The position numbers and the translations under genes are program-made. A DNA stretch of 55,452 nucleotides from Lentimicrobiaceae bacterium (GTDB lineage: Bacteria; Bacteroidota; Bacteroidia; Bacteroidales; F082), in contig SUWU01000015.1 of assembly GCA_015061295.1 (NCBI GenBank), positions 1-55,452 of the forward strand, given 5' to 3'. The notes below the pieces were generated by a model, which ran no database searches, was not told where the DNA came from, and was given only the letters and a program-made list of their open reading frames with translations. How positions within the stretch are numbered: position 1 is the stretch's first letter; each line of letters starts with the position of its first letter. Of this stretch, positions 3,914 to 54,675 are shown in pieces.

Positions 3914-3976
3914 TGCTCCCTAATTCCCAGAAGAAAGCGGATTATAAAAAAAAGAAAGGTGTGGGAACTTATTGTT

Positions 3977-4174
3977 CTACCCTATTGATGAGGCTTCTCG
4001 CATTGCCCTTGCTGTCAGATAAAACAATAACCCACACCAGAGGATATGTAGGAAGCCACTACGGGCTGTACATACCAATGATGTGGTGCCATCGTCACCA
4101 TCTTCACAGCTTAGAAATTTTGCGAGAATTTCATCAAAGAAGATAATTTCAATAACACCTTTTTCCTCCACCAT
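3977..4174 (-). CDS. Possible 65-residue membrane-associated protein
   Basis: An ATG at 4172-4174 opens 65 codons. The acidic stretch LSCEDGDDG is followed by a hydrophobic segment (FLHILWCGLLFYLTARA, about 41-57). A TAnnTTTG element (4187-4194 on the minus strand) lies just upstream, leaving a leader of only a few bases. The start codon sits in a CCTCCA/TGGAGG hairpin (4165-4179). I do not recognise the product. Its reality depends mainly on the promoter. Otherwise the 404 bases between 3913 and 4318 hold no recognisable gene. Confidence 0.3.
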   Translation of the reverse strand: MVEEKGVIEIIFFDEILAKFLSCEDGDDGTTSLVCTARSGFLHILWCGLLFYLTARAMREASSIG

Positions 4175-53181: not shown

Positions 53182-53189
53182 TACTTTTG
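53182..53189 (+). promoter_or_regulatory. -7 promoter element (TACTTTTG) of the structured leader
   Basis: TACTTTTG with TTGG at 53159 and a 20-base spacer. Start site near 53195, about 100 bases before the rod-like RNA. Confidence 0.7.
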
Positions 53190-53194
53190 CTCCG

Positions 53195-53520
53195 TAATAA
53201 AAATAAAATATTAACTAAAATAAATTGCCTATGAACGATTGACGTATTTGATACGTACATTATAAATATTGGAAAAGCGTTTTAGCTTTATTCTTCTGCT
53301 CAGAAAGTTTGGCGACTAAAAAGACAGGAAAGAATAATGGTTAGAATGCCTGCGATAAATTCGCGGGCTTTTGGTTATTCTACTGTCTGGGTTACGCCAA
53401 ACACCTCTGAGCAGGGATAACAAAAAGTACCGCGTTTTTTTATGTGCGTATCTGAGATTCCAAGAGGTACTGATGGAGTAACCGAAAAGCCGTGAAGTGA
53501 GTAGGAAATGAATTATTTAA
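53195..53520 (+). ncRNA. Candidate structured RNA or long 5' leader, family not recognised
   Basis: A nested rod is formed by five stems: 53296-53304/53406-53414 (9 bp), 53307-53314/53395-53402 (8), 53322-53327/53383-53388 (6), 53331-53337/53375-53381 (7) and a terminal hairpin 53348-53355/53361-53368 (8). GGTTA in the internal loop (53390-53394) can pair with TAACC (53479-53483), a possible pseudoknot. AGTACC/GGTACT (53426-53431/53466-53471) adds another stem. A short hairpin (53242-53256) and a 3-codon frame precede the rod. It reads either as a free ncRNA or as the leader of the gene at 53532. The exact ends are not known. Confidence 0.6.
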
Positions 53521-53531
53521 ATTAAAGAAAA

Positions 53532-53900
53532 ATGAAAAAATTATTTTTAGTATTGGTATGTGCTGTTCTTTTTAGCGCAACATTCGTCTTAAGTTCATAT
53601 AAAACAAATGATAACAATGTGCCAACTGAAGAATTAACAGCAATGTCAGATGATTGTGATGAATATACATATATTGGTACATATTTAGGAAGAAGTGAAA
53701 GTGGAAGGAAAATAAATTTTGACATATTTCAAAAAGAAGGTATGTGTAACTCTTACTATTGGGCAATTGATTTTAATCCTGATGGTAATGATTATTGCAG
53801 ACATATAGAACACAATAGCACAAGAGGTGTTCTGATGAAAGATTCTGAAGGTCATTGGTATGCTGCATATAATTCACTAAAGTACTATGTCGATCTTTGA
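53532..53900 (+). CDS. Small secreted protein downstream of the structured RNA
   Basis: The 122-residue product has a signal peptide (about 1-21), then a Tyr/Asp-rich body with three cysteines (SDDCDEY, EGMCNSYY, DYCRHI). No family recognised. It is preceded by an A-rich leader typical of the phylum and by the folded RNA, and followed by a strong terminator. If the RNA is a cis regulator, this is its target. Confidence 0.6.
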   Translation: MKKLFLVLVCAVLFSATFVLSSYKTNDNNVPTEELTAMSDDCDEYTYIGTYLGRSESGRKINFDIFQKEGMCNSYYWAIDFNPDGNDYCRHIEHNSTRGVLMKDSEGHWYAAYNSLKYYVDL

Positions 53901-54105: not shown

Positions 54106-54675
54106 ATGGAAAATAAAAAAGATTTGGCATTACAATCAGTACAATCGTTAATTGTAGAAATCAGAGGTGTTCAAGTAATTCTTGATGCTGATATAGCCTC
54201 TTTATACGGTGTGGAAACCAAAAGAATAAATGAAGCTGTCAAGAATAATCCTGACAAATTTCCCGATGATTATATGTTTGAGCTAACAGAAAAGGAATTG
54301 ATACTTTTACGGTCGAAATTTTCGACCACAAAAGTATCAAACAAAAACAGATACTTACCTAAGGCGTTTACAGAGAAATGATTGTATATGCTCGCTACAA
54401 TATTAAGAAGTAAAAAATCTATTGAGATAACTTTTGCAATAATAGAAACATTTGTGAAAGTAAGAAGTGTGAAACAAGAATTGATAGACTTGCATAAAGA
54501 GGCTGATAAAACTAAACAAAGCGAAAAGATGAATCGTTTGGGAGAACTACTTTCGGATATTGTAATGCCAGATTTAGAAACTACAGAAACGGAGTCTGTT
54601 TTAGAGTTAAACTTTGTTATAGGAAAAATAAAACATACTGTAAAAAGAATTAAGAGTAATTTGAAAGATGATTAA
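54106..54675 (+). pseudogene. ORF6N-domain gene interrupted by one in-frame TGA
   Basis: ATG 54106 opens an ORF6N domain (SLIVEIRGVQVILDADIASLYG, ETKRINEAVKNNPDKFP, YMFELTEKE). It continues to RYLPKAFTEK, and then TGA at 54379-54381 interrupts the frame. Translation resumes in the same frame as LYMLATILRSKKS...AIIETFVKVR, the usual continuation (AFTEQGVxMLATxLxS...xAFVxxR). A single Gly codon GGA changed to TGA would explain it. The C-terminal part ends in a coiled coil. ORF6N proteins are phage-like DNA-binding regulators. A full-length product of about 189 residues was the ancestral form. Confidence 0.85.

Follow-up and report, generated by a model that had tools for sequence, protein, structure and literature searches.

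The folded RNA in the region 53182-53900 of the window (the whole stretch of 55,452 nucleotides that was analysed) is real and belongs to a large family. In our preferred reading, to which we give a probability of roughly 45%, it is a conserved structured leader RNA and likely a transcription attenuator of the adjoining gene for a secreted-looking protein. Covariation across relatives demonstrates that the 5' and 3' halves of the RNA are linked by helices P4, P5 and P6, and that the 3' half folds back on itself as well, forming a hairpin with a U-tract at its end. By the same kind of evidence, strands at the base of this 3' hairpin also take part in helices P2, P3 and P7.

Layout of the locus and distribution of the family

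All coordinates refer to the + strand unless stated otherwise. A promoter element, a mini-ORF, a folded core of ~200 nt, a U-tract (T7), a DUF805b-like tail and an ORF for 122 aa follow each other at 53182-53900. The promoter element (TACTTTTG, 53182-53189) matches the -7 element of the Bacteroidota type (TAnnTTTG), in agreement with the phylum-type promoter proposed in the earlier note. The mini-ORF at 53231-53242 reads ATG AAC GAT TGA, that is, a start, two codons and a stop. The small secreted protein that the RNA had been said to precede is the 122-aa ORF at 53532-53900, which starts at 53532 and has a hydrophobic N-terminus; a search of a protein collection returned 21 relatives besides itself, and a Pfam search gave no match of note. 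Behind it, at 54106-54675, lies an ORF6N-domain gene broken by an in-frame TGA at 54379-54381, whose first piece matches ORF6N (6.1e-30) and whose second piece matches nothing.

That the RNA is structured, as first noticed from the letters alone, is borne out by its predicted stability: the rod at 53296-53416 folds with -58.6 kcal/mol (z -10.1) and none of 200 shuffled sequences was as good, and the segment 53195-53535 has a z of -6.4, with none of 100 shuffles as good.

The size of the family was missing from the earlier note. The own genome carries another copy (78% identical), which lies ahead of a different secreted-looking protein. The pattern GGAAAAGCGNNNTAGCTT has matches in 12 of 173 genomes of the family, with none for the reversed control among the matches listed, and a longer pattern gave 85 stretches in named genomes. 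Altogether 87 exact-pattern loci were obtained, five of which (L099, L105, L136, L141, L142) were judged by eye to be chance matches, leaving 82. The records of the relatives are labelled mostly Bacteroidales or Bacteroidia, with one MAG labelled Flavobacteriales; they come mostly from ruminants, deer and horses, but also from Symbiothrix, a termite symbiont. The viral collection contained no exact match to the pattern.

A covariance model (R2) was built from 52 sequences and used with a threshold of E <= 0.001. With it, 148 of 393 genomes of the order gave matches, as did 27 of 296 genomes drawn from the phylum, 25 of the latter lying outside the order within the same class; in searches that covered over 40 genomes few candidates were scored per genome. 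The own genome has nine matches, seven above 50 bits and two weak, and seven other genomes that were searched deeply have 1, 6, 15, 20, 24, 26 and 35, with 27 of the 35 exceeding 50 bits. Since the palindromic core also matches in antisense, with up to 36 bits, matches below about 40 bits, including the two in the own genome, are to be taken as weak. A second weak match of 37 bits lies in the window itself, at 3955-4162 of the minus strand (model positions 27-200).

Pairing within and between the halves

From the 82 exact-pattern loci an alignment of 72 sequences (A1) was built with MAFFT, leaving out near-identical loci (at least 90%), loci cut by the locus ends (L088, L096, L131) and loci without the 3' half (L083, L106). 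The permutation controls, in which strands were dealt to other loci, leave relatedness in, and their figures have to be read so.

Compensatory changes across homologous loci are indeed present. On the 72-sequence alignment P1 (53250-53260 with 53442-53452) has 84.4% of its cells paired and double changes at 7 of 10 pairs; the values are 95.1% and 8/8 for P5 (GTTTGGCG at 53307-53314 with 53395-53402), and 97.7% and 5/8 for P7, the tip hairpin at 53348-53368. For P4 (53296-53304 with 53406-53414) and P6 (53323-53327 with 53383-53387) only about 71% and 65% of the cells are paired on the MAFFT alignment, and their support comes from a duplex test over 72 loci: native P4 strands gave -9.5 kcal/mol versus -2.2 kcal/mol after permutation (z -25), native P6 strands -9.5 versus -2.4 kcal/mol (z -33). 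PX (GGGT/ACCT, 53389-53406) closes the loop that holds the 3' strand of P5; it is 98.3% paired, and its inner pair is found in 95 of 97 versus a permuted mean of 87.8 and a maximum of 91. P2 is 99.8% paired, yet nearly invariant among close relatives; its 5' strand (GGAAAAGCG, 53271-53279) has a possible partner in the CGC/U-tract region at 53431-53441, and in distant relatives it covaries, on an alignment fitted to P2. A hairpin AAAGC/GCUUU near P2 was not significant (371 versus 368 permuted).

The pseudoknot P3 (53426-53431 with 53466-53471) joins the bases just before the U-tract to a strand that usually lies 18-30 nt beyond it. Five Watson-Crick pairs form in 50 of 76 loci, versus a permuted mean of 11.4 and a maximum of 21, and the 48.6% of paired cells is from the MAFFT alignment, which aligns the 3' strand poorly. 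P3 takes the place of the pairing between loop bases of the rod and a downstream TAACC that had been suggested earlier. That pairing could not be confirmed: a downstream 5-mer complementary to the 3' half of the rod is found in 9 of 40 loci (permuted mean 6.8, maximum 14), and the TAACC stretch falls in the DUF805b-like tail.

How do the two halves pair? Whole-strand duplex tests of the half-rods gave locus-specific pairing for a-a', t-t', a-t' and a'-t (z -6 to -36), whereas the control pairings a-t and a'-t' were not locus-specific. In a second test each arm was cut into lower and upper strands. Over the 72 loci the upper strands pair mainly across the halves (P4, P6), with little or no specific pairing within them (z -3.5 and 0.0). 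The lower strands of the 3' arm pair with each other, with -17.5 kcal/mol versus -13.4 kcal/mol after permutation (z -11 in the 72 loci, -16.6 in 97 model-found loci and -5.7 in 19 loci from other orders). Of the two cross pairings of lower strands, a-t' is not seen in the 72 loci (z 0.6), and a'-t takes a middle position there, with a z of -8.0 that drops to -2.9 within one rod type. For the 5' arm (53280-53347, predicted to pair 53280-53293 with 53332-53347) the lower strands pair mostly via constant sequence, with a z of -2.5 in the 72 loci and -0.7 within one rod type; support is weak also in the wider samples (-6.3 in the 97 loci, -0.5 in the 19).

In the 97 model-found loci the main contrasts recur, but less cleanly: the split is blurred by a z of -7.8 (-1.1 kcal/mol) for upper strands pairing within the 5' arm and by one of -7.7 (-1.4 kcal/mol) for a'-t, the lower cross pairing. 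In the 19 loci from other orders only P4 (z -14.4), P6 (z -13.3) and the lower 3' arm stand out. Rod and 3' hairpin may be mutually exclusive folds, or they may coexist in one crossed fold, as the pairing of the upper strands across and of the lower 3' strands within the halves would allow.

Of the nested rod originally drawn, P4, P5, P6 and P7 hold up, while the stem between P6 and P7 (53332-53340 with GGTTATTC) has less support (z -8.0 in the 72 loci, -2.9 in one rod type and -1.1 in the 19 loci from other orders). The fold as drawn does not stand, since the 3' half forms a covarying hairpin of its own, which crosses the rod and runs up to the U-tract. A simple rod as the whole story was rejected on this locus-specific support for the 3' arm. 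Besides the 3' hairpin, the drawing also lacked P1, P2, P3, PX and the mini-ORF.

The 3' arm and its U-tract (53362-53441) look like an intrinsic terminator: 53362-53380 are predicted to pair with 53415-53434, followed directly by T7 at 53435-53441, and all of this lies upstream of a gene. The base of the arm reaches a U-tract of at least four in 77 of 78 model matches from Bacteroidales, and in 13 of the 16 loci that have such a tract among 19 examined from other orders. The 3' arm, with a loop longer than the limit of 8 in a plain terminator scan, was not picked up by it; what the scan listed was P7, the tip hairpin, together with the U-rich stretch that follows, and this could be a separate terminator.

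The strand just before the U-tract pairs with the P7 tip strand in 536 of 574 cells, versus a permuted mean of 519 and a maximum of 528 (none of 2000 permutations as good); in the window the 3' strand of P7 is pairable with 53427-53434. On the alignment fitted to P2, the same strand pairs with the 5' AAAGCG strand in 511 of 537 cells (permuted maximum 491). One strand with two partners, the second of them seen on a fitted alignment, would be the pattern expected of a terminator and its competitor.

The order of the parts, the helices and the mini-ORF are given by sequence and covariation, and from these we infer termination, a competing fold and coupling to the ribosome. By default, the 3' hairpin and the U-tract would terminate transcription. 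A competing fold, in which P7 together with P2 would provide the read-through pairing, would dismantle the 3' hairpin and let the polymerase read through. The downstream strands of P1 and P3 arise only when the polymerase reads through, and these two helices could then lock the read-through form; since they form only once the U-tract has been passed, they cannot themselves prevent termination. In Bacteroidales the mini-ORF would load a ribosome beside P1 and so tie the fold to translation.

Which state is the default is uncertain. The whole rod in the window is more stable (-68.5 kcal/mol) than both arms summed (-46.8 kcal/mol), which counts against a simple terminator default once everything is transcribed. 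Alone, the 5' arm is predicted to fold with -21.3 kcal/mol (z -1.9) and the 3' arm of the window with -25.4 kcal/mol (z only -2.8, 4 of 200 shuffles as good).

The promoter element and the terminator-like end could also belong to a stand-alone, trans-acting small RNA with a length of about 245 nt and its end at U7, the neighbouring gene being expressed by leak-through. The many copies per genome would suit such an RNA, as would the mostly unrelated downstream genes described below. We nevertheless regard it as rather unlikely: P1 and P3 covary and need sequence beyond the U-tract, the downstream genes in the order are biased towards secreted-like proteins, and a mini-ORF is odd in a trans-acting RNA.

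The mini-ORF and the genes behind the RNA

In all 82 exact-pattern loci a stop follows within five codons of the aligned ATG, versus a shuffled mean of 29 and a maximum of 42; the two other frames gave counts of 9 and 32. Counting the start, the mini-ORFs of these loci are 1 to 5 codons long (0-4 after the ATG); 34 different ones occur, and shuffles with one locus per distinct mini-ORF (34) gave 12.6, with a maximum of 22. The start of the mini-ORF in L066 was placed by hand at the aligned ATG. Among the 44 forms that begin with ATGAARCAY, codon 4 is a stop in nine, and in those codon 6 is never a stop; in the remaining 35, codon 6 is a stop in 35 of 35. Of the model-found Bacteroidales loci, 45 of 66 have an ATG followed by 0-2 codons and a stop within the 67 nt that adjoin the core upstream (shuffled 14.2, maximum 24). 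In other orders the mini-ORF is not kept (1 of 17 loci). No conserved peptide and no regulatory codons were found among the mini-ORFs of the 82 loci. Judging from these patterns, what is kept is the ORF, not the peptide.

An alternative is a translational explanation, in which ribosomes would load at the mini-ORF, stop just before P1 and re-initiate, shunt-like, at the gene past the fold. The reading frame of the mini-ORF is maintained, and 24-36 nt separate the end of its stop from GGAAAAGCG in 82 of 82 loci; its ATG is preceded by AGGAG in L081, L087, L104 and L117, and in L066 and L067 similar TAACTAAA-type stretches stand before the mini-ORF and before the gene start alike. However, members in other orders have the RNA without the mini-ORF, and the U-tract hairpin would be unneeded. 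Shunting is, to our knowledge, a matter of plant viruses and not of bacteria, which also counts against this explanation, and we judge it unlikely.

In 57 of 79 loci a TAnnTTTG element is found no more than 75 nt ahead of the mini-ORF, versus none of 79 in control windows further upstream. One truncated member (L008:1501-1560) consists of the 3' half only and lies directly behind a TACTTTTG promoter element, before an ORF.

The genes behind the RNA are mostly secreted-like. A crude hydropathy test classes the first complete downstream ORF as secreted-like in 95 of 110 loci from the order, versus 111 of 465 background ORFs, all of which have at least 150 codons; the 110 are those of 150 Bacteroidales loci (82 plus 68 found with the model) in which a downstream ORF is complete and at least 60 aa long. 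In other orders this holds for only 4 of 9 complete downstream ORFs. By eye, L244, L250, L251 and L257, from another order, have the RNA about 220-300 nt before TonB-dependent-receptor-like ORFs. Directly downstream of the distant members L194, L196, L200 (own genome) and L234 lies, in place of a secreted protein, a small one that looks, by eye, like a helix-turn-helix protein.

The downstream proteins are mostly unrelated to each other, 119 of them falling into 89 clusters. A ligand that is bound by the conserved core and chooses between the folds, as in a metabolite riboswitch, would be in line with the near-invariant stretches of the core, such as GGAAAAGCG...TAGC, and with its pseudoknotted fold. 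But the downstream genes share a predicted location and no evident pathway, so that one metabolite would hardly fit, and a riboswitch of this kind strikes us as distinctly improbable.

Of 18 locus pairs whose DNA is similar upstream, 15 have dissimilar DNA downstream; these pairs are not independent of one another, and among the 15 are two with loci that are cut short or without the 3' half. Examples are the groups L068, L070, L077 and L066, L067, L073, in which the upstream DNA is 82-100% identical and the DNA behind the RNA is dissimilar. This resembles an expression site with exchangeable genes. L076 is a mosaic: up to P2 it is like L001 (157/158), its arms are like those of the paralogue L002 (132/132), and the breakpoint lies inside the element. 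Judged by its flanks, L076 sits at the position of the window locus in another species, and its downstream gene looks shortened by an internal deletion. It could be argued that the element is a cassette boundary at the level of DNA, where recombination in the repeat swaps the genes behind one promoter and the RNA fold is secondary. Both the dissimilar pairs and the mosaic would favour this; P1, P3 and the stop of the mini-ORF are, however, conserved as features of RNA or translation, and we give such a boundary very little probability.

Returning to the attenuator, it is tempting to speculate on a device that is common to the class Bacteroidia: two adjacent hairpins, with loops zipped over about two dozen base pairs, would form a double-crossover-like fold around the terminator, the mini-ORF would couple it to the ribosome in Bacteroidales, and the whole would act as a cassette for surface or secreted genes that are swapped between strains. 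This wider picture is tentative, and we rather doubt it in full. If true, one RNA device would control many secreted or surface proteins per genome in common bacteria of the animal gut, and if the reading as an on/off switch is true, a widespread control device is missing from Rfam. R2 and the helices with known compensatory pairs are tools for work on gene control in bacteria whose regulation is poorly understood, and the element may mark a hot spot of gene exchange behind a fixed promoter.

Comparison with known RNAs

Among the Rfam families, only tRNAs, elsewhere in the window, reach the gathering score. For the core, Rfam 15 gave no family match in the window or in 40 other loci scanned, be it a riboswitch, 6S RNA or another family, and as far as Rfam goes the RNA may be called undescribed, as in the earlier note. 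In E-value mode the tail at 53473-53507 is DUF805b-like and the other Rfam matches listed are weak. RF02913, tried on a guess, is another RNA and matched nowhere. Among the matches listed from the open-licence literature none describes this RNA. A study of a flavobacterium (PMC9723704) reports, in the part available to us, 64 structured 5' regions, some of them without Rfam matches, and members of the present family may be among them.

The tail aligns over all 35 positions of the DUF805b model (RF02914), and DUF805b sites, too, lie a few dozen bases upstream of likely starts. With 26.4 bits the tail of the window stays under the cut-off of 35.6, and that of L154 is over it (39.2 bits). In this set DUF805b is common: 77 of 100 relatives match at E <= 0.001, 57 of them over the cut-off, sometimes with several copies on one contig. 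The 35-nt DUF805b model covers only 53473-53507 and does not explain the whole element; the core of the present RNA is without an Rfam match. Of 50 loci fetched for DUF805b (L013-L062), 11 also match R2 (three above 40 bits), several of them just upstream of the DUF805b site, whereas 39 show no R2 match. DUF805b and the large RNA are thus often, but not usually, together. For a pseudoknot within the DUF805b-like tail the counts are no more than suggestive (13 of 35 versus a permuted mean of 5.1 and a maximum of 13).

6S RNA, which we take to be covered by RF00013 and RF01685, is likewise rod-like and about 200 nt long. The present RNA differs in its many copies per genome and in its place before secreted-like genes, and the 6S models gave no match in gathering or E-value mode.

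We know of no described leader RNA that combines such a fold with a start-stop mini-ORF. The closest comparison is with attenuators that use an intrinsic terminator, for example those of the leader-peptide and T-box types. The present RNA shares with them the position before a gene, a short ORF, a hairpin that abuts a U-tract and one strand that seems to have two partners. It differs in that its mini-ORF has 0-4 codons after the ATG in the 82 loci, without a conserved peptide, and in that no link to a tRNA or an amino acid is seen. What further sets it apart from these attenuators is the loop of the 3' hairpin, which pairs with an upstream strand over P4, P5 and P6.
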